A stretch of 64,000 bases of DNA from assembly GCA_012519205.1 (NCBI GenBank), contig JAAYQR010000010.1, forward strand, positions 62,001 to 126,000, given 5' to 3'. Positions 36,302 to 52,244 of the stretch are shown one piece after another. Numbering within the stretch: the first letter of the stretch is position 1; each line of letters opens with the position of its first letter. The notes under the pieces are model-generated. The model was not told the DNA's origin, did no database searches, and saw only the letters and a list, made by a program, of their open reading frames with translations. Made by a program: the position numbers and the translations under genes. Origin of the DNA: Candidatus Epulonipiscium sp. GTDB taxonomy: Bacteria; Bacillota; Clostridia; Lachnospirales; Defluviitaleaceae.

Positions 36302-37780
36302 ATGGAAGGTTTCAATATTTATCAAGATATTTCTAAAAGGACGAACGGGGATATTTACATAGGGGTAGTAGGACCAGTTAGAACAGGAAAATCAACCTTC
36401 ATCAAACGTTTTATGGACCTTCTTGTAATACCTAATATACCCAATAATTACAATAAAGAAAGGGCAAAAGATGAGCTGCCCCAAAGTGCCGCAGGCAAAA
36501 CTATTATGACTACAGAGCCTAAATTTGTTCCAAATGAATCTGTAGCAATTACCTTAAATGATGAAGTTGAACTAAATGTTCGGATGATTGACTGTGTTGG
36601 ATATATGGTTCCCGGGGCAACAGGGCATCTAGAAGGGGAAAATCCTCGAATGGTTAATACCCCTTGGTATGAGTATGAAATACCATTTATAGAAGCAGCA
36701 GAAATAGGAACCAAAAAAGTAATCAATGATCATTCGACCATAGGCATTGTTGTTACAACCGATGGCACCATAACAGATATTCAAAGAGCAGATTATGAAG
36801 AAGCAGAACAAAGGGTAATTAGTGAACTCAAAGCACTTAATAAACCCTTTGTAGTATTGTTAAATTCCGCAAAACCCTATGATGAGCTAGCTCAAGACTT
36901 AAACGAAGAATTATCGACCCGCTACAATGTTCCAGTTATTACCTGTAATTGCGCTCAGCTTAAAATGGACGATGTTAATAGAATTATGGAGAGTGTTTTA
37001 TACGAATTTCCAATTCAAGAAATTCAATTTACATTCCCCAAATGGATTGAAACCCTAGATAAGGACCATTGGATGAAAAAGCAAATCATATCAGCAGTAA
37101 AAGAAACCATGGATCCCGTACACAATCTCAGGGAGCTCAAATACTCAGTAGAAGGTTTTAATAACTATGATTTTATCAAAAAGGCATATCAAGAAAAGAT
37201 TAATCTAGGCAAAGGGATTGTTCGGATTGATTTAATGACTGCAGATGATTTATTCTATAGGGTATTATCTGAAACAACGGGTATGGAAATAGAGGGGGAA
37301 CATCAACTGATTTCTCTTATTCGCAAATTGGCAGATACAAAGAGGGAATATGATAAGGTATCCTATGCCCTCCATGAAGTTAAACAAAAAGGCTACGGAG
37401 TGGTTACTCCCTTATTGGATGAACTTAAATTAGAAGAGCCGGAAATAGTAAAACAAGGAAATCGTTTTGGAGTTAAGCTAAGGGCCAGTGCACCATCTAT
37501 CCACTTAATAAGGGCTGATATCGAAACGGAAGTATCCCCTATAGTAGGCACTGAAAAACAAAGTGAAGAGCTAGTTAACTATCTAATGAGTGAATTTGAA
37601 ACTGATCCAAGAAAAATATGGGAATCCAATATCTTTGGCAAATCCCTTCATGAATTGGTGAATGAAGGCTTACAAAACAAATTGTATCGTATGCCGGAAG
37701 ATGCCCAAATGAAATTGCAAGAAACCCTGCAAAAAATAATTAACGAAGGAAGCGGCGGCTTAATCTGTATTATTCTATAG
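36302..37780 (+). CDS. spoIVA: Stage IV sporulation protein A
   Basis: ATPase that polymerises on the forespore to form the coat basement layer, anchored by SpoVM. The 492-aa length matches the family. Walker A GPVRTGKST is at residues 24-32; the switch-like MIDCVGYMVPGATGH is near 97; the C-terminal half is alpha/beta with the typical end GSGGLICIIL. SD GAAGGAGGG, 6 nt from the ATG. Stands alone between terminators. Confidence 0.97.
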   Translation: MEGFNIYQDISKRTNGDIYIGVVGPVRTGKSTFIKRFMDLLVIPNIPNNYNKERAKDELPQSAAGKTIMTTEPKFVPNESVAITLNDEVELNVRMIDCVGYMVPGATGHLEGENPRMVNTPWYEYEIPFIEAAEIGTKKVINDHSTIGIVVTTDGTITDIQRADYEEAEQRVISELKALNKPFVVLLNSAKPYDELAQDLNEELSTRYNVPVITCNCAQLKMDDVNRIMESVLYEFPIQEIQFTFPKWIETLDKDHWMKKQIISAVKETMDPVHNLRELKYSVEGFNNYDFIKKAYQEKINLGKGIVRIDLMTADDLFYRVLSETTGMEIEGEHQLISLIRKLADTKREYDKVSYALHEVKQKGYGVVTPLLDELKLEEPEIVKQGNRFGVKLRASAPSIHLIRADIETEVSPIVGTEKQSEELVNYLMSEFETDPRKIWESNIFGKSLHELVNEGLQNKLYRMPEDAQMKLQETLQKIINEGSGGLICIIL

Positions 37781-38135: not shown

Positions 38136-38144
38136 TTTTAATAG

Positions 38145-38170
38145 AACACTCATTTATGAGTGTTTTTTAC
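38145..38170 (+). terminator. Terminator after the DUF6465 gene
   Basis: 8-bp stem AACACTCA / TGAGTGTT, TTTA loop, followed by T residues. Confidence 0.85.
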
Positions 38171-38232: not shown

Positions 38233-39735
38233 ATGACGGAATTAAATTATGCTAAAAATAAAAAAAGAAAGAAAAAAAAGTCGAGAAAAAATAAAACGGC
38301 CTTAGGTGCTCTTTTATCCTTTTTTTTAATCACTTATTTAATGGCTTCGGGATTCATGTTAACCAGAAAAGTACCCCTATCCATTGAAGTGGTCCAAATG
38401 GGAACCATCAATAACAACATCCATTCAAAAGGGGTAATCATAAGGGATGAAATCCTAGTAAAAAGCCCAAGAGAGGGCAGTATCCAGTACCTTATGTATG
38501 AAGGGGAAAAAATCAAGCAACATACCCCCATATGCATTGTTGGTGACAATCCAGCCCTTAATAATCTTCAAAAAGATATAGACAAAGTTAATGATGACAT
38601 TGTCAAACTACAAAATCAACGAAAAGACTTTTCAACTATACAAAAAGAAGTTCAAGAAATCAATTATCAAATTAGTGATTTGGTCAAGAAATCAAGAGAC
38701 GCATATTCTAATAAAAACTATGTTCATCTATATTCTCTAAAAAGTGCCATAAAACTCGAAATAGAAAAAAAGCAAACCCTCTTATCGAAAGAAAATACAT
38801 CTTCCCTACAGGGTTTAATTCTACAAAAAAAAGAATATGAAAATCAGATTTCCCAAAATTCCAATGTAGTCAAAGCCCCTAAGGGAGGCATCATTTCCTA
38901 TTATACAGATGGATTAGAAGAGAAATTTACTATTGATAATTTAGATAAAATAACCGAAAAAGACATAGAAAAAACTATAGAGATTAAGGATATAAGTCAA
39001 AATCAGACTGCCAATAAAAATTCAGCCCTATTTAAAATTGTTGATAATTATGCCTGGTATATTGCCTCTAGTATTTCCAAGGAATCAGCCGAAGGTTGGG
39101 AAGAGGGGGATTTCTTTTGGCTTAAGTTTAATGGGGAGCCCCTAGAAATCAAAGTCAATATCCATCGTATTCAGCCTTTAGACAAGGATTTTATGATCAT
39201 CTTTAAAAGCACGGAAAATATGCTACCCCTTATTTCTAAGAGAAATGTAGAATTTGAAATATTAAAAGACAATATCAAGGGAATTAAAATTCCCATCAAT
39301 TCCATTGTCAAAAAAATATTTATCAAAATCCCTAAAATCTACCTACAACAATCTGGCAAGCAGCTTGTTGTCATCAAAAAGGGTTCCGAAAACGATGTCC
39401 TCATCCCCATTGAAGTTGCTTATGAGGATGAGGAAAACATATATGTATTACAGGATTTTTCCACCCTTAAATTGTATGAATCCCTAATTCTACCACAGGA
39501 TGCCTCTAAAGAGCTAATATTAAAAGAAAATGAAGAAAAGGTCGGAGTATTTGTCGTAAATGGCGGCATTATAAGGTTTAAACCAATAAAAGTGCTGGTA
39601 CAAAACAAGGAGTATGCAGTTGTAGAGCAGGATACACCCTCAGGTATACGATTGTATGATCAAGTTGTATCCAACGCAAAGAACGTTAGAGAAAACCAGT
39701 TGATTAATCAGTTTAATGTAATCGATAATAAGTAG
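38233..39735 (+). CDS. Membrane-anchored HlyD-like protein of the division cluster
   Basis: A 500-aa protein with a basic N-terminus, one membrane helix (about 26-45) and a large extracellular part. After the anchor comes a half lipoyl-like motif (SIQYLMYEGEKIKQHTPICIVG, about 77-98, split), a coiled coil (about 105-215), and a beta-rich C-terminal part (about 260-490) containing a second barrel-like region. This is the layout of HlyD/membrane-fusion proteins, but no ABC transporter gene is beside it. The next genes are yggS-sepF-yggT-ylmH-divIVA, so a link to division or the envelope is inferred. Function unproven. Confidence 0.75.
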   Translation: MTELNYAKNKKRKKKKSRKNKTALGALLSFFLITYLMASGFMLTRKVPLSIEVVQMGTINNNIHSKGVIIRDEILVKSPREGSIQYLMYEGEKIKQHTPICIVGDNPALNNLQKDIDKVNDDIVKLQNQRKDFSTIQKEVQEINYQISDLVKKSRDAYSNKNYVHLYSLKSAIKLEIEKKQTLLSKENTSSLQGLILQKKEYENQISQNSNVVKAPKGGIISYYTDGLEEKFTIDNLDKITEKDIEKTIEIKDISQNQTANKNSALFKIVDNYAWYIASSISKESAEGWEEGDFFWLKFNGEPLEIKVNIHRIQPLDKDFMIIFKSTENMLPLISKRNVEFEILKDNIKGIKIPINSIVKKIFIKIPKIYLQQSGKQLVVIKKGSENDVLIPIEVAYEDEENIYVLQDFSTLKLYESLILPQDASKELILKENEEKVGVFVVNGGIIRFKPIKVLVQNKEYAVVEQDTPSGIRLYDQVVSNAKNVRENQLINQFNVIDNK

Positions 39736-39752: not shown

Positions 39753-40451
39753 ATGAGTTATATTAAGGATAATCTTGAAGAAATCAAAAATAGGATTGAT
39801 AAAGCAGCAAGAAAAAGCGGAAGAATAGGTGAGGATATCACTTTAATTGCTGTAACAAAAACCATCGACATAGATAAAATTAATGAAGTTTTATCCTATG
39901 GAATCCATAATATCGGAGAAAGTAAGGCTCAGGAAATAATGACAAAATATGATTTTATTAAATCCAATACCCTGTGGCATCTCATAGGTCACCTACAAAC
40001 AAATAAAATAAAATACTTAATTGATAAAATAGGCTTGATTCATTCTGTAGATAGTGAACGCTTGATTTTTAAAATTGACGACATGGCAAAAAAACATAGT
40101 AAGATAATGGATATCCTTCTCCAAATTAATATAGCAAGAGATGAAAAAAAATACGGCCTATTAGAGGAGGACATATACCCCTTAATAGATAAAATTAAGG
40201 ATTTAAAAAATATACGGGTCAAAGGTCTTATGACTATAGTCCCATATGAGCAAAATCCTGAGGATAGCAGGGGGTATTTTAGTAAATTAAAGCAATTATC
40301 TGTTGACATTGCCAGTCAAAATATTGATAATATAAATATGGAAGTTCTTTCTATGGGCATGACCAATGACTATGAAATTGCCATAGAAGAAGGGGCAACT
40401 ATGGTGAGGATTGGGACAGGCATATTCGGGGAAAGAAATTATAATATATAG
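39753..40451 (+). CDS. yggS: YggS family pyridoxal-phosphate homeostasis protein
   Basis: PLP-binding protein (alanine-racemase N-terminal fold, PROSC family) that buffers vitamin B6. The 232-aa product has the Lys-PLP site LIAVTKTIDIDKINE near residue 30, NIGESKAQE near 53, WHLIGHLQTNK near 77 and a phosphate-site SMGMTNDYEIAIEEGATMVRIG near 202-223. Regularly placed before sepF in Gram-positives. SD TAAGGAG. Confidence 0.93.
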   Translation: MSYIKDNLEEIKNRIDKAARKSGRIGEDITLIAVTKTIDIDKINEVLSYGIHNIGESKAQEIMTKYDFIKSNTLWHLIGHLQTNKIKYLIDKIGLIHSVDSERLIFKIDDMAKKHSKIMDILLQINIARDEKKYGLLEEDIYPLIDKIKDLKNIRVKGLMTIVPYEQNPEDSRGYFSKLKQLSVDIASQNIDNINMEVLSMGMTNDYEIAIEEGATMVRIGTGIFGERNYNI

Positions 40452-40462
40452 GGGGCGTTAGA

Positions 40463-40930
40463 ATGGCAAAGTTTTTAGATAAGATGATGGATGTTATGGG
40501 ATTTGGCGCTGGAATCGAGGATGAATACGAAGAAGAAATAAATGAAATAGAAGAAAAAACCGAAATTCCACAAATTAGAAGTTTGCGTCAAGGATTTAAA
40601 GGGAATTCTAAGATAGTTAATATTCACACCAACATTCAGATGGAAGTTATTATAACAAATCCAGAAACTTATGATGAAGCTCAAGAAATATGCGATCATA
40701 TTAAACTAAAAAAACCCGTAATCATTAATTTAGAAGAAATGGATAACCGCACAGCACAAAGAGTTATGGATTTCTTAAGTGGTGCATGTTATGCCCTTGA
40801 TGGAGAAGTTCAAAGGGTTTCTAATAATATATTTATCATTGCTCCGGAAAATGTTGATATTGCAGGAAGTTTTAAAGAAGAGTTAAAAACCAAGGGAATT
40901 ATTCTACCTTGGATGAGTGCAGCAAAATAA
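40463..40930 (+). CDS. sepF: Cell division protein SepF
   Basis: Membrane-binding FtsZ anchor. The 155-aa protein has an N-terminal amphipathic helix (MAKFLDKMMDVMGFG), an acidic linker rich in Glu (about 20-40) and the conserved C-terminal domain (about 58-145) with KPVIINLEEMDNRTAQRVMDFLSGACYALDG near 91-121. GGGGGCG-type SD sequence. ftsZ itself is not in the window. Confidence 0.95.
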   Translation: MAKFLDKMMDVMGFGAGIEDEYEEEINEIEEKTEIPQIRSLRQGFKGNSKIVNIHTNIQMEVIITNPETYDEAQEICDHIKLKKPVIINLEEMDNRTAQRVMDFLSGACYALDGEVQRVSNNIFIIAPENVDIAGSFKEELKTKGIILPWMSAAK

Positions 40931-40942
40931 TGGAGGCTTCTT

Positions 40943-41242
40943 ATGATTTTAGGTGTGGTTTTATATAAGGCAGTATCGATTTTTTTTAATTTACTTAACC
41001 TATTAATTTTTGCTCGAGTTTTTTTATCTTGGTTTCCTATTAATAGGGATAATCCTTTCATAATCCTGATATACAAATTAACAGAACCTATTTTACTGCC
41101 CGCTAGGAAGCTTATGGAAAAATCTGTTTTTGGCGGTAGGGGACTTATGATTGATTTTTCGCCGCTTATTTCGTTATTGGCTTTAGAATTTATAAGAAAA
41201 ATACTAATTTATTTTATTTATACTTATCTTTATATCCGATGA
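40943..41242 (+). CDS. YggT family membrane protein
   Basis: A 99-aa protein with two hydrophobic helices (about 5-27 and 68-95) and the YggT loop FARVFLSWFPINRDNPFIILIYKLTEPIL (positions about 23-51). Conserved next to sepF and ylmH in Gram-positives; affects division site placement or membrane homeostasis, mechanism unclear. SD GGAGG. Confidence 0.9.
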   Translation: MILGVVLYKAVSIFFNLLNLLIFARVFLSWFPINRDNPFIILIYKLTEPILLPARKLMEKSVFGGRGLMIDFSPLISLLALEFIRKILIYFIYTYLYIR

Positions 41243-41252
41243 AAGGATTAAA

Positions 41253-42041
41253 ATGATTAATAAAGAAACCTATCTGGCTCGATTTAAGGATGCCAAAGAA
41301 AAGCTTATGGCAAGCAAAATATTAGATAAAGTGAATATTTGTTTAAGAGATCATACCAATACTTTTACTGATTTTATTAATATGTATTCGGTGGGAAAGT
41401 ACTTGGACATGGTAAGCCCTATATTAGGACTCTCTGTCCATTCTTTTGGAGGATACATGGATAGCGAAAGGAAAATCATAGGGTTTTGCCCGCAGTATCG
41501 CATTCTAGAAGAGACGGACTTCCCAATTTTACCAATGGAAATAACCCTTAAGACCTTTAATAACGAATCAATATCCCATAGGGATTATTTGGGTTCAATC
41601 TTAGGTCTTGGGATTGATAGGAGCAAAGTGGGGGACATATTGACCCTTGGACAAGGGGCCATCGTATTTGTTTGCCCCGATATTGCTTTTTATATACTTA
41701 ACAATTTACTTAAAGTTAAAAACTCAAAGGCCCAGGTTCGTGAAATCACCCTCGAGGAGGTTACTTTGCCAGAACCAAAGATAAAAGAGATATCCTCTAC
41801 GGTTTCGTCCTTAAGGGCCGATAACGTTTTAAGTTCGGGTTTTCAATTATCAAGGAGTAAAGCAGTAGAATTAATAAAAACCGATAAATCCTTAATCAAT
41901 GGAACCATAGCCAATCCTTCTTCTAGCGTTAAAGAAGGAGATTTTTTAACCCTTAGGGGACTTGGAAGGATTCAATTGGTTAAAATAAAAGGAAAAACTA
42001 AAAAAGATAGAATTAGTATTGTCATACATCGGTATATATAA
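41253..42041 (+). CDS. ylmH: YlmH family S4-domain RNA-binding protein
   Basis: A 262-aa protein; the C-terminal S4 domain (about 183-250) shows VLSSGFQLSRSKAVELIKTDKSLING. In Bacillus RqcP/YlmH homologues act in ribosome-associated quality control, and the family was first noted near division genes. The N-terminal ~180 residues form the YlmH-specific region (FGGYMDSERKIIGFCPQY near 68). In line with yggT and divIVA. Confidence 0.9.
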   Translation: MINKETYLARFKDAKEKLMASKILDKVNICLRDHTNTFTDFINMYSVGKYLDMVSPILGLSVHSFGGYMDSERKIIGFCPQYRILEETDFPILPMEITLKTFNNESISHRDYLGSILGLGIDRSKVGDILTLGQGAIVFVCPDIAFYILNNLLKVKNSKAQVREITLEEVTLPEPKIKEISSTVSSLRADNVLSSGFQLSRSKAVELIKTDKSLINGTIANPSSSVKEGDFLTLRGLGRIQLVKIKGKTKKDRISIVIHRYI

Positions 42042-42054
42042 GGGGGAACTAGAT

Positions 42055-42597
42055 ATGCTTACACCATTAGACATTGAATCACAGGAATTTAAGAGAAGGC
42101 CTTACGGCTACTCTGTTGAAGAGGTGGACAAGTTTTTAGATGAAATCATTCAATCTTATGAAGTTGTTTACAAGGAAAATATCGAATTAAGAGATAAAAT
42201 ATCTATGTTAAATGAAGGGATACAATATTATAAGACTTTAGAAAAAACCCTTCAAAGCACCTTGGTATTGGCTGAAAAAACCGCAGAAGAAATAAAATCA
42301 ACGGCATATCAAAAAGGGGAACAAATTAAAAGAGAAGCTGAAAATAGGTCCGGCGAGATATTAGAAGAAGCCCACCAAAAGCTTTTTAATATGAATCAAG
42401 AAATAGAAAGATTAAGAAAGTTATATGTTTCAGCTAAGATACAAATTAAGCAAACCCTACTGACCCAATTAGAACTTCTAGAACAATCTGCACTTTCCAA
42501 GGAAAATGAAACCTTTGAAGAAAAAACCGTAAGAAAACAAACCAGAAATCTCCATAACAGGGAGCAAAGCACCTTGAGAAATGAGGATGCTCTATGA
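42055..42597 (+). CDS. divIVA: DivIVA domain protein
   Basis: A 180-aa coiled-coil protein. The N-terminal DivIVA domain TPLDIESQEFKRRPYGYSVEEVDKFLDEI (positions 3-31) includes the membrane-binding start, followed by predicted coiled coil (about 35-145). Localises to curved membrane at poles and septa and recruits partners. ATG chosen after AGGGGGAA; the upstream frame extends into ylmH. Its TGA overlaps the aroB ATG. Confidence 0.92.
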   Translation: MLTPLDIESQEFKRRPYGYSVEEVDKFLDEIIQSYEVVYKENIELRDKISMLNEGIQYYKTLEKTLQSTLVLAEKTAEEIKSTAYQKGEQIKREAENRSGEILEEAHQKLFNMNQEIERLRKLYVSAKIQIKQTLLTQLELLEQSALSKENETFEEKTVRKQTRNLHNREQSTLRNEDAL

Positions 42598-48114: not shown

Positions 48115-48852
48115 ATGGAGGGTAATTTAAATTTAAATGCAATGGAAACCGAGGAAAAACCCCTAGGATTTTTCCAAAAACTAATAGGGATATTTGTAAA
48201 TCCTAAGGAAGTTATTGAGGATATTTTAAGCTATCCTAAAATGCTTTTGCCCCTGATTTATACATCTATTCTTATAATTGCTGTATATTACATACGGCTA
48301 CCTTTAGTCCCTATCACCAATCAAAAGATGGCAGATATCTATTTGCAATACGGGATGGATCTATCCCAACAGTTAGAGCAAAATAATACATTATATTATA
48401 TTAGTGGCTTATTTGGGCCCCTTTCCTTACTAATGATTTGGGGTATTGGTGGGATATTTCTATGGCTTATTGCAAAGATATTCGGCGATAAATCTAGTAT
48501 TAAGCAGATTTATTCCCTTTATGCCCATGCATTTATGATTATTGAAACAGGGGCACTTATTGCAGCACCCTTAGGGCTCTTACTAAAAACAGATATCGTT
48601 ATCTTTTCCCCGGCAGCTTTTATGCCCAATGGCAATGCCGCGAGTTTCTTGTATAACTTTTTAAGTATGTTTGAGTTCTTCACCATCTGGGGGATGTTGT
48701 TTGCAGGTTTAGGGATTTCTTTATTTAATCAGTTCAGTAAACTAAAAGGAATGATTATCGCCTTCCTACACCTTCTATTAGGTAATGCATTTATTGCATT
48801 TACTGCTACTTTGCAGTTTCTTATGTTGAATTTAGTAAACAAAAATATCTAG
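48115..48852 (+). CDS. YIP1 family membrane protein, copy 1
   Basis: A 245-aa protein with about five hydrophobic helices; the soluble N-terminus (about 1-40) contains GFFQKLIGIFVNPKEVIEDI, typical of bacterial Yip1-domain proteins. Its job is not known. It is 11 bp before a MacA-type adaptor gene and so probably belongs to that exporter unit. SD GAGAGGAG. A second YIP1 gene is at 63162. Confidence 0.82.
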   Translation: MEGNLNLNAMETEEKPLGFFQKLIGIFVNPKEVIEDILSYPKMLLPLIYTSILIIAVYYIRLPLVPITNQKMADIYLQYGMDLSQQLEQNNTLYYISGLFGPLSLLMIWGIGGIFLWLIAKIFGDKSSIKQIYSLYAHAFMIIETGALIAAPLGLLLKTDIVIFSPAAFMPNGNAASFLYNFLSMFEFFTIWGMLFAGLGISLFNQFSKLKGMIIAFLHLLLGNAFIAFTATLQFLMLNLVNKNI

Positions 48853-48863
48853 GGAGAATGCTC

Positions 48864-50342
48864 ATGAATACTAAAATTAAATCGATAAATAATAAAAAAC
48901 TAATAATGGGTATAGGTATAGTATCCATATTAACTATATTTGTTGTTGTAGCTGCTATCAATCAAAAAAATCCCTCTGATTCCAAGGGGATGCCCAAATC
49001 TGGTATCCCAGTAAATATTGAAGAAGCTAGAATAGATACTCTTATTTCAAAGGTAAGTGCTACAGGAATAGTAGAGGCAAAAGAGTCAGAAACTGTATAC
49101 GTTAGCAATACCCTAAAAATCGAAGATATCCTTGTGGAAACAGGGGATACAGTAAAGAAGGATGAGGCTCTAGTAAATTATGATCCTTCTTTTAAAAAAG
49201 AGTTAGAACAACAATTAAAAGAAGCAGAAATAGCTTTGCAAAATGCAGATTTAAGGTTGCAGTCTATGACAACTGCAGACCAAATAGAAATCCTTAATGC
49301 GGAATCCTCCCTTTCACAGGCTCAAAAAATGTTCAGGGATACGCAAACCTTCTTAAACCAAATTGAACTTTCAGTAGAACAGTTAAAACTTAAAGTAAAA
49401 GATGCCGAGAAAAACTTAGAAAATAACAAAATACTCTTTAATGAAGGGGCCATAGCTAAAAGGGATCTAGATGAGTCTAATAGACAGCTTACGGAACTTA
49501 AAAATCAATTATCAACAGAAGAAATGAAAATCCAATCTGCTAAACTAGACATAGAAAATGCAGAAAAGCAGAAATCCATAGCACAACATAATTTGTCAAC
49601 CACATATAATAAATTTTCAGATCCAAAACAGGAGGCAGAGATAAAAATCCAAAAAAATCAGGTGGAATCCCAAAAGATGAGAGTGGACACTCTAAAAGAA
49701 AAGCTAGAAGAGCAGCTTCTATCTTCAAAAGCTTCGATGAATGGAACAGTGGTAGAAATTTTTGCTGAAAAAGGTGCCTGGATTAATCAAAACTCCCCCT
49801 TACTAAAGATATCGAATTTGGATAATTTGATTATTAAAGTAAATATGTCCGAGTATGATGCCCCTTCTATAGAAAAAGGTCAAAGGGTTACCTTTAAGGG
49901 GGATGCCATAAAAAATGCCTTAGTAGAAGGCAGAGTAAGTCATGTTGCTCCGACAGCAACAATTCAAAACATGGGAAATAGCCAAGAAGCAATGGTAGAG
50001 GTAACAATAGAAGTATTAAATAAAGATTCTACACTTAAACCTGGATATACCGTAGATGTGGAGATTATCACTGCAGAGCATGAAGACACTGTTGTGATAC
50101 CATTGCTTGGGGTTGTAGATGAAAAGGATGGTACAAAAATAGCATATATTATGAAAGACGATTACACTGTAGAAAGAAGAGTTGTTAAGACAGGGATTTA
50201 TTCTGATTTATACGTAGAGGTAACTGGGGTTAATGAAGGAGAAAAAATAATCACAAATTATAACCCTAATATCAAAGAAGGTGCTAAGGTAAAACCCTTA
50301 GAAACAAAAACTCAATTAGGTGATGGCCATGATAAAAATTGA
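48864..50342 (+). CDS. MacA-like efflux adaptor (HlyD/RND membrane-fusion family)
   Basis: A 492-aa protein with one N-terminal membrane helix (about 14-32), a lipoyl half-domain (VSATGIVEAKESETVYVSN near 57, EDILVETGDTVKKDEALVNY near 82-101), a long coiled coil (about 108-290), the second lipoyl half (ASMNGTVVEIFAEKGAWIN near 290) and beta-barrel and membrane-proximal domains (about 320-480). Links an ABC pump to the cell surface. ATG 48864 chosen after AGGGAGA. Overlaps the ATPase gene by 14 nt. Confidence 0.9.
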   Translation: MNTKIKSINNKKLIMGIGIVSILTIFVVVAAINQKNPSDSKGMPKSGIPVNIEEARIDTLISKVSATGIVEAKESETVYVSNTLKIEDILVETGDTVKKDEALVNYDPSFKKELEQQLKEAEIALQNADLRLQSMTTADQIEILNAESSLSQAQKMFRDTQTFLNQIELSVEQLKLKVKDAEKNLENNKILFNEGAIAKRDLDESNRQLTELKNQLSTEEMKIQSAKLDIENAEKQKSIAQHNLSTTYNKFSDPKQEAEIKIQKNQVESQKMRVDTLKEKLEEQLLSSKASMNGTVVEIFAEKGAWINQNSPLLKISNLDNLIIKVNMSEYDAPSIEKGQRVTFKGDAIKNALVEGRVSHVAPTATIQNMGNSQEAMVEVTIEVLNKDSTLKPGYTVDVEIITAEHEDTVVIPLLGVVDEKDGTKIAYIMKDDYTVERRVVKTGIYSDLYVEVTGVNEGEKIITNYNPNIKEGAKVKPLETKTQLGDGHDKN

Positions 50343-51036
50343 AGCCCTTCATAAGACTTATAAAAACGGAAAAATAGAGGTAGCCGCCCTAAAAAATATA
50401 TCCCTAAAGGTCATTCCTAAAGAATTTGTAGCCATTATGGGGGCTTCAGGCTCCGGAAAATCTACCCTCATGAATATATTAGGGTGTCTAGATCGCTCCA
50501 CAAGCGGGAAATACTATCTAGATAAGGTAGATATATCCTCCCTAGAAGACAATGATTTGGCTGCTATCCGAAATATTAAAATCGGCTTTGTGTTTCAGGC
50601 ATTTAACCTTCTTCCCAAACTAACTGCACTAGAAAATGTCGAGCTGCCTATGATTTATGCCGGGGCAAAGCATAAGGAAAGAAAAGAAAAAGCCATGTTA
50701 GCCTTAGAAAGAGTGGGGCTAGCTGATAGAATAGATCATCGTCCTAACGAACTATCAGGGGGGCAAAAACAAAGGGTGGCTATTGCTAGAGCCTTGGTTA
50801 ATTCTCCATCCATTTTGTTAGCAGATGAGCCTACAGGGAACTTAGACAGTAAATCCAGCAAGGAAATAATGGGTATTTTTCAAAAGTTAAATGAAGAAGG
50901 GGTAACCATAGTCATGGTTACCCATGAGATGGATGTAGCTGAGCATACAAAAAGAATAGTTACATCTAAAGATGGGGAAATTATATCGGATAAGGCCGTA
51001 TTAACCACCATCAAAGCAGGGGGGAATGAATTATGA
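50329..51036 (+). CDS. ABC transporter ATPase, MacB/LolD type
   Basis: A 235-aa nucleotide-binding subunit: Walker A GASGSGKST near residue 40, Q-loop FQAFNLLPKLTALENVELP near 90-108, signature LSGGQKQRVAIARAL near 141, Walker B ILLADEPTGNLDS near 161, H-loop MVTHEMDVAEH near 195. It pairs with the MacB-like permease that follows. The ATG at 50329 is preceded by AGGTGA; earlier GTG/ATG codons overlap the adaptor gene. Confidence 0.94.
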   Translation: MIKIEALHKTYKNGKIEVAALKNISLKVIPKEFVAIMGASGSGKSTLMNILGCLDRSTSGKYYLDKVDISSLEDNDLAAIRNIKIGFVFQAFNLLPKLTALENVELPMIYAGAKHKERKEKAMLALERVGLADRIDHRPNELSGGQKQRVAIARALVNSPSILLADEPTGNLDSKSSKEIMGIFQKLNEEGVTIVMVTHEMDVAEHTKRIVTSKDGEIISDKAVLTTIKAGGNEL

Positions 51037-52244
51037 ATTTAACAGAAAGTATAAAGTCTGCCTTTAGAAATCTCCTTGCAAATAAAATGCGTTCCTTCCT
51101 CACTATGCTGGGAATTATAATTGGAATTGGCTCAGTGATTATGATTACTTCCGTAGGTGCAGGAAGCCAATCTGCCATTACGGCAGATTTTGATAAACTA
51201 GGAGTAGGGATGCTTACCATACAAATGAAAAATCCTAACAAAGCAAAGACTAGGGATTTTCTTACTTTAGATGATACAGAATTGATTCGAAAGCATCCTG
51301 AGGTAGAAAATGTATGTCCTTATTTTCAGGGGTGGGGTGCATCTGTTAAGTTAAAAAACCCTAAGGAAGAAAAAGAAAGCCTAATCAATGGAATCAATGA
51401 GGATTTTAGATTTCTTTCTTCACAGGAACTTCTATATGGCCGCCATATTATAGAGTCAGATGGTAAGACAAAAAGCAAGGTAGTAATCATTGATGAAGTA
51501 CTTGCCCAAAAGGTATTTGCAAGAAAAGATGTTGTCGGTGAGACCATAGCAGTCACTCTGTGGAGGGGAACCTATGATTTTACTATCATTGGAGTATCAA
51601 AAAACGCAAATGCTGCGTTAGAATCCATGATGGGAGATCAAATGCCCTCTATGCTATACGCACCTATTGAAACAGTTAATGATATGTATAGATATGATTA
51701 TGTGGATTATTTTTATGTTACAACTAAGGATGCCAGCAGTGCTGATCAAACTGCTTTAGAACTAACTAAAATGTTAGAAACAAAACATAGAAATGAAGAT
51801 GCATATTTTGTAAAAAATGCGGCCCAGGATTTAGAAATGGTAAACAATATACTAGGCATCATCACTGGTTTTATAAGTTTTGTTGCCGGCATTTCCTTAC
51901 TGGTAGGAGGCGTCGGGGTAATGAACATTATGCTAGTCACCGTTACGGAAAGAACCAGGGAAATTGGCATAAGAAAATCTCTGGGAGCTAAAAACAAAGA
52001 TATCAGGCAGCAGTTTTTAATAGAGGCGGTTATTCTAACCATAATCGGTGGGGTCATCGGGATTACCCTTGGGTTTTTAGGGGGCATTGGAATAGGCTCT
52101 GCTATGAAAATCACGCCAAAGATATCCTCCCTATCCATAATCGTTACTGTTGGAGTATCTACAATTATTGGTATCATAGCTGGGGTTTATCCGGCAAATA
52201 AGGCTGCCAAACTAGACCCAATCGAGGCTCTTCGATATGAATGA
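51033..52244 (+). CDS. ABC transporter permease, MacB/FtsX family
   Basis: A 403-aa permease with a first membrane helix (about 20-42), a large extracellular MacB-PCD domain (about 45-260), and three more helices in the C-terminal FtsX region (about 277-395, GISLLVGGVGVMNIMLVTVTERTREIGIRKSLGA near 288-321 split). With the adaptor and ATPase it forms a macrolide/peptide-type exporter; substrate unknown. Overlaps the ATPase stop by 4 nt. Confidence 0.92.
   Translation: MNLTESIKSAFRNLLANKMRSFLTMLGIIIGIGSVIMITSVGAGSQSAITADFDKLGVGMLTIQMKNPNKAKTRDFLTLDDTELIRKHPEVENVCPYFQGWGASVKLKNPKEEKESLINGINEDFRFLSSQELLYGRHIIESDGKTKSKVVIIDEVLAQKVFARKDVVGETIAVTLWRGTYDFTIIGVSKNANAALESMMGDQMPSMLYAPIETVNDMYRYDYVDYFYVTTKDASSADQTALELTKMLETKHRNEDAYFVKNAAQDLEMVNNILGIITGFISFVAGISLLVGGVGVMNIMLVTVTERTREIGIRKSLGAKNKDIRQQFLIEAVILTIIGGVIGITLGFLGGIGIGSAMKITPKISSLSIIVTVGVSTIIGIIAGVYPANKAAKLDPIEALRYE

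Follow-up and report, generated by a model that had tools for sequence, protein, structure and literature searches.

In Bacillus subtilis, sepF lies in a gene cluster with the order ylmD-ylmE-sepF-ylmG-ylmH-divIVA. Cell division in clostridia is poorly mapped and differs from that of B. subtilis. For C. difficile, one source reports that RFP fusions of SepF, DivIVA and YlmG are found at midcell, that sepF is essential and ftsA absent, and that CDR_2504 is one of seven fusions without localisation (PMC12548448). According to a second source, sepF and divIVA of strain 630 are CD2622 and CD2619 (PMC9674922). A third describes CDR20291_2512 as a putative exported protein, places a CmrR-binding site 75 bp upstream of it, and states that cell chaining is controlled by CmrRST (PMC12548384). 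If one goes by the locus numbers only, CDR20291_2512 could be a C. difficile counterpart of the gene described below, and CDR_2504 is probably not its counterpart.

The closest described proteins are adaptors of efflux pumps, namely MacA, AcrA and MexA, and also BesA of Borrelia, which serves an RND pump. Both Pfam and NCBIfam have a name, though no tested function, for the HlyD_2 sequence family; the NCBIfam entry TIGR02828, a hypothetical equivalog domain, is called "putative membrane fusion protein", a name that carries no function. Among the papers listed by a literature search that lay mostly outside the subscription journals, none connects proteins of the HlyD type with sepF or with the ylm cluster, gives the family a function, mentions the accession TIGR02828 or reports a localisation or phenotype for the HlyD_2 gene. 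A term search of PMC12539705 was without matches.

Here we describe a member of this family from the window, that is, from the whole 64-kb stretch of DNA that was analysed. Its novelty lies in the position, and probably the role, in which an already described fold occurs here, neither of them described for this fold.

Genomic context of the gene

The HlyD_2 gene is the first of six close-set genes, followed by yggS, sepF, yggT, ylmH and divIVA (Table 1), and a GGGGAG-like ribosome site lies ahead of it (by eye). The initial annotation had claimed the neighbours yggS-sepF-yggT-ylmH-divIVA, and family profiles bear all of them out and place SpoIVA upstream. Calculated from the ORF coordinates, the intergenic gaps are 17 nt (HlyD-yggS), 11 nt (yggS-sepF), 12 nt (sepF-yggT) and 10 nt (yggT-ylmH); the gap between ylmH and divIVA is 13 nt if the ATG at 42055 is the start of divIVA. 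The order around yggS(ylmE)-sepF-ylmG-ylmH-divIVA is thus the same as in the B. subtilis cluster. B. subtilis, on the other hand, has no PF12700 match, while in L119 and L129, the two loci tested for ylmD (PF02578), ylmD lies directly upstream of the HlyD_2 gene, which therefore sits between ylmD and yggS.

Between spoIVA and the HlyD_2 gene there are a small ORF of the DUF6465 family and, behind it, a terminator-like hairpin, so that the HlyD_2 gene may open a unit of its own instead of extending that of spoIVA; the terminator-like matches in the stretch (6, compared with 4.8 expected by chance) are near chance level. A consensus scan recognised no promoter directly before the gene. As seen in the neighbour maps, spoIVA is near the HlyD_2 gene only in some of the relatives.

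A protein search of its own genome (E ≤ 10) returned the HlyD_2 protein as the sole match, and a search with PF12700 returned two stretches, both in the HlyD_2 gene; these searches reach close relatives only, and both missed the MacA-like adaptor of the window.

Table 1. Features of the window and parts of the HlyD_2-family protein (residue numbers refer to this protein)
Feature	Position	Strand	Evidence and remarks
spoIVA, upstream neighbour	36302..37780	+	TIGR02836, 796.1 bits
Small DUF6465 ORF	37941-38135		matches second half of family profile
Terminator-like hairpin	38143-38166	+	consensus scan
HlyD_2-family adaptor-fold protein	38233..39735	+	500 aa, ATG start; PF12700 E 3.4e-69
Basic N-terminal tail and membrane helix, residues 4-44	38242..38364	+	model helix; hydrophobic stretch read from sequence; putative topology
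First barrel-sandwich (lipoyl-like) half	38395..38544	+	model strands between 49 and 104; conserved RxE at residues 71-73
Alpha-helical hairpin region, residues 106-209	38548..38859	+	model helices 106-131, 136-159, 163-186, 190-209
Second barrel-sandwich half and DGxE motif, residues 210-229	38860..38919	+	DGxE conservation in aligned rows
Beta-barrel domain, residues 265-355	39025..39297	+	model; K268, W275, R337, G350 conserved (98 rows)
C-terminal beta region with insertion found in part of family only	39298..39723	+	row coverage
yggS, PLP-binding protein, nearest neighbour	39753..40451	+	TIGR00044, 184.8 bits
sepF, Z-ring membrane anchor	40463..40930	+	PF04472 E 6.9e-31
yggT (ylmG)	40943..41242	+	PF02325 E 6.2e-19
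ylmH	41253..42041	+	PF17774 and S4 domain
divIVA	42055..42597	+	PF05103 E 6.8e-38; ORF listed from TTG at 42019
MacAB-type operon	48115-52244		Yip1-domain membrane protein, adaptor, ABC ATPase, MacB_PCD/FtsX permease

Predicted fold and family variation

The efflux-adaptor architecture that had been proposed from the letters is upheld by two results: the protein matches PF12700 with 234 bits (cut-off 25.1), and its AlphaFold2 model aligns with MacA and BesA. Its score for TIGR02828, 68.2 bits, is below the cut-off of 154.4 bits. At E ≤ 1e-3, PF12700 is matched by 42 of 42 alignment members and TIGR02828 by 40 of 42. The model (mean pLDDT 86.0, pTM 0.56, 42 sequences) contains a long N-terminal helix, two barrel-sandwich halves, a four-helix hairpin region between them, a beta domain and a C-terminal beta region. 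The predicted parts, from the membrane helix through barrel-sandwich, helical hairpin and beta-barrel to the C-terminal beta region, follow one another as they do in MacA, AcrA and MexA, and the window protein is predicted to have the full efflux-adaptor fold, like these three and the hairpin-less BesA.

When compared with solved structures using VIA-align, the model gave MacA (5nik_D; Z 14.1, 326 aligned, rmsd 14.9) and BesA (4kku_B; Z 13.9, 248 aligned, rmsd 5.2) as the best, the rows for MacA, MexA, AcrA and BesA having Z of about 11-14. The high rmsd to the long adaptors probably reflects domain angles; BesA is the low-rmsd match. The best 50 Foldseek rows are all adaptors or entries of efflux systems. 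A sequence search of the solved structures gave only 4 chance-level matches (E 0.039-0.062), and PADLOC gave no match at E ≤ 0.01.

There are also differences from the described adaptors. Unlike the genes of MacA, AcrA and MexA, the window gene has no adjoining exporter and lies in a division operon, the protein carries a family-specific DGxE motif after the lipoyl half, and the host would be expected to have no outer-membrane channel. It likewise differs from BesA in that no pump gene adjoins it.

Two alignments were used. Alignment A1 consists of the window protein and 21 of the 29 other loci of the relatives set (L004, L012, L014, L015, L016, L020, L023 and L024 are left out for contig ends or stop-codon notes), and A4 of the window protein and 41 of the 50 named loci (L054, L055, L066, L067, L071, L075, L077, L078 and L080 are left out because they are truncated or short or have no good start). 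In a record of Caloramator sp. mosi_1 (L080:9911-13027), each of the matches to HlyD_2, yggS and divIVA is divided between two frames, perhaps through frameshifts in the sequencing.

Motifs were counted on 96 distinct aligned sequences instead of 98 rows, since two genes are present twice (window/L094 and L065/L081). The hairpin, which the window protein has, is missing in 15 of the 96. DGxE is found in 90 of the 96 sequences and in 14 of the 15 without hairpin, RxE in 80 and 13, respectively, and many of the hairpin-less relatives keep the genomic slot together with DGxE. The window's own MacA-like protein has no DGxE. Short forms are common: 59 of the 95 adjacent phylum genes have open frames of less than 375 aa. 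For one hairpin-less relative, L076, the model (pLDDT 86.6, pTM 0.72) has BesA (4kku_B) as its best structural match, with Z 14.3, 228 aligned and rmsd 4.9. At the other end of the protein, some members of the family, among them the window protein, have an extra C-terminal insertion; residues 356-480 are covered at ≥ 0.9 in 31 of the 98 rows (the window gene counted twice) and at 0.38-0.55 in nearly all others.

Conservation of the gene order

The initial annotation had named an adjacency found only in this strain as a result that would refute its interpretation. Instead, we find the gene beside the cluster across the class and the phylum. Of the 118 genomes of the class sample, 103 have a match to PF12700 and 112 a match to sepF. 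Both are matched in 101 genomes, and 96 of these carry the HlyD_2 gene upstream of sepF, in the same orientation and no more than 5 kb away; the median distance between the matched stretches is 949 nt. The phylum sample (149 genomes) has PF12700 in 117 genomes, a count in which some weak matches (G183 among them) could be genuine pump adaptors, and sepF in 132; among the matches listed, which take in 112 of the 117 PF12700-positive genomes, HlyD_2 is upstream of sepF, again in the same orientation and no more than 5 kb away, in 95 of the 97 genomes with both. All 40 genomes of the relatives set, our own included, have the gene, and yggS or sepF lies in the 1.5-kb flanks of 29 of the 30 loci read from that set.

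Fifty loci with organism names, found with one peptide pattern that limits the reach of the scan, range over Defluviitalea, Anaerotignum, Thermohalobacter, Oscillospiraceae, Anaerovorax and Caloramator; yggS or sepF is downstream in 45 of them and follows in 41 of the 44 that have at least 3 kb downstream. Since the named loci overlap other genomes, and the class and phylum samples share genomes with our own among them, the three adjacency counts are not independent samples. The gene was found by PF12700 in none of the 14 control genomes, B. subtilis included. Two SepF-family matches at separate places are seen in G174, G181, G217, G235, G255, G260 (possibly fragments), G270, G289 and G294.

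Several genomes deviate from the common arrangement. The class exception G022 (a 1.2-Mb genome) has the gene directly behind cdaA (DAC domain) and ybbR (L145:6369-9677), two genes linked to the envelope; this moved copy hints at a link to c-di-AMP and the wall. In G130 and G084 the gene lies elsewhere with no pump directly beside it (by eye), the nearest candidate in G130 being an MFS-like ORF 4 kb away; G066 has a fragment at a contig start with other genes after it, and G075 a weak PF12700 match beside an RND-size ORF. As for the phylum exceptions, HlyD and yggS are still neighbours in G278, where the contig ends, while the match in G183 is weak and lies next to an MFS-like ORF.

No PF12700 match was obtained in 11 of the 112 sepF-bearing class genomes, and therefore the protein is not needed everywhere. 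One of the 11, G126, holds a divergent copy that fills the slot without a Pfam match (E 3.3e-12 with our own profile). In the HlyD-less genomes G290 and G175, ylmD abuts yggS, that is, the same slot is empty. The HlyD-less genome G078 has DUF881-DUF1290-DUF881 genes, of the YlxW/YlxX type, directly before yggS-sepF (L135:3989-5802), a possible alternative occupant of the slot.

The gene also occurs where sepF does not, in 15 of the 17 sepF-less phylum genomes. We read 14 of these loci (L111-L124; the carrier G246 is outside this set and some of the genomes are close kin): in 13, HlyD-yggS is followed by ylmH and divIVA, with yggT also kept in 9 of the 13, and in the 14th the contig ends just after the gene. 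In L114 and L121 there are 1.4-2 kb between HlyD and yggS. As the arrangement survives without sepF, we see the gene as linked to the cluster as a whole, and above all to yggS, rather than just to SepF. Upstream of the gene the neighbours vary. By eye, there are ftsQ-, ftsA- and ftsZ-like ORFs in L119 and L113, and spoIIGA-, sigE- and sigG-like ORFs, whole or in part, in L129, L118, L111 and L116. Phosphate-import genes (phoU, pstB) lie directly upstream in L114, L121 and L126, with further pst-like genes in L114 and L121 (PhoU was assigned by Pfam in L126, the other labels by eye).

Alternative explanations

The protein could be an ordinary adaptor that works with a pump encoded elsewhere (a MacB-type permease, FtsEX, an RND or an MFS pump), in which case it would owe its slot to an accident of history in co-regulation. 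The predicted model retains the complete adaptor fold, and the best structural match of the short form is BesA, so that a missing hairpin is no proof against a pump role. FtsX, moreover, is a MacB-like type VII ABC protein, and FtsX_ECD is found in 38 of 40 relatives-set and 139 of 149 phylum genomes, our own included in both. On the other hand, the initial annotation saw no transporter partner, and indeed no cognate transporter adjoins the gene in the window. The nearest pump there is the MacAB-type operon (48858-52244), whose own adaptor matches HlyD_3 and HlyD_D23, with no HlyD_2 match listed; since this pump has an adaptor of its own, we judge it unlikely to be the partner. No exporter was seen by eye upstream in 11 usable loci either (L128, listed on the wrong strand, is left out). 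A transporter does adjoin the gene in some lineages, namely pst/phoU upstream in L114, L121 and L126, though this is an importer. Two weak PF12700 matches read outside the cluster, unlike the cluster gene, adjoin pump-like ORFs (by eye, one of 1051 aa and RND size in L151, and one of 525 aa and MFS-like in L148). FtsEX as an obligatory partner is unsupported, as G179, G191, G227, G228, G232 and G268 carry HlyD_2 without an FtsX_ECD match, where draft assemblies and missed ECDs limit such absences (G228 has an FtsX-sized PF02687 ORF of 305 aa). G232, a draft genome (99% complete, 70 contigs), has the gene and gave no match to PF02687, the FtsX/MacB-type permease family. Taken with this genome and with the hairpin being absent in many lineages, the absence of an exporter neighbour argues against an ordinary MacA-type role, and we consider a pump adaptor rather unlikely.

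Another explanation is that the protein serves chiefly in sporulation, which re-uses division genes, and would act, for instance, at the asymmetric septum or during engulfment. SpoIVA is encoded next upstream here and in several relatives, and in L129 the gene lies behind spoIIGA-sigE-sigG-like ORFs (by eye). HlyD_2 is present in 105 of 128 spoIVA-positive phylum genomes compared with 12 of 21 spoIVA-negative ones (one genome taken as G295 by elimination), a skew with a Fisher p of 0.019, or 0.008 without the weak match in G256, where kin genomes are counted as independent; SepF has no such skew with respect to spoIVA (p 0.71). However, these 12 genomes do keep the gene without spoIVA, as do 7 of the 7 spoIVA-less genomes among the 40 of the relatives set, 6 of which are at least 90% complete, and B. 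subtilis sporulates and yet has no such gene (a control genome). A role in sporulation only is therefore rejected; sporulation as the main role is unlikely, and a share in it is possible. Finally, the cluster might be kept together for housekeeping co-expression, and the protein might have an unrelated task in the envelope, e.g. the handling of PLP or of metabolites together with YggS. It is true that yggS is the nearest neighbour and persists where sepF is missing, but pure chance is improbable given the extracytoplasmic fold, the slot beside sepF, yggT and divIVA, and the ftsZ-like ORFs nearby in some lineages. We regard this explanation as very unlikely.

A proposed role in division or envelope building

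From the location of the gene we infer a role in division or envelope building, which the context supports well. The adaptor shape, the division-gene neighbours and the lack of an adjoining pump of its own make the protein a strong candidate for an overlooked division or envelope factor, and the midcell location of its neighbours SepF, YlmG and DivIVA in C. difficile points to the same kind of work. The reading that we consider the most likely, with a probability of about 0.5, is that the protein is a conserved member of the clostridial ylm cluster, at the tail of the dcw genes, and acts as an oligomeric extracytoplasmic scaffold of the septum or the envelope, without a dedicated pump. It would be a single-pass membrane protein with its short basic tail in the cytoplasm and the adaptor fold outside. 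Several copies may assemble into a scaffold at the septum or at sites of envelope building, and this scaffold might connect the divisome, on its SepF/YggT/DivIVA side, with the synthesis or hydrolysis of the wall. Several points run counter to the scaffold: gene adjacency can reflect co-expression alone, a purely vegetative role would not predict the enrichment with spoIVA, the gene is missing from some sepF-bearing class genomes and from the control genomes, a transporter (pst/phoU) adjoins it in some lineages, and BesA is a hairpin-less adaptor that serves a pump.

More tentatively, a large group of Bacillota, the Clostridia and their relatives, may have turned the adaptor fold into a structural part of the divisome, a pump-free septal ring or sleeve tied through tail and helix to the SepF/YggT/DivIVA side, with the hairpin as an optional reach element. 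If the hairpin were such an element, it could come and go between lineages, with the DGxE/RxE core and the slot remaining in place.

At present the HlyD_2 gene is labelled only as a part of secretion systems or pumps, and automatic "efflux adaptor" labels may mislead. For the poorly mapped division of clostridia, it offers a concrete candidate for a missing piece of the divisome, found in 117 of 149 phylum genomes and nearly always by the sepF cluster when both are present. If the scaffold reading is true, this would be an adaptor fold used for building and not for transport.
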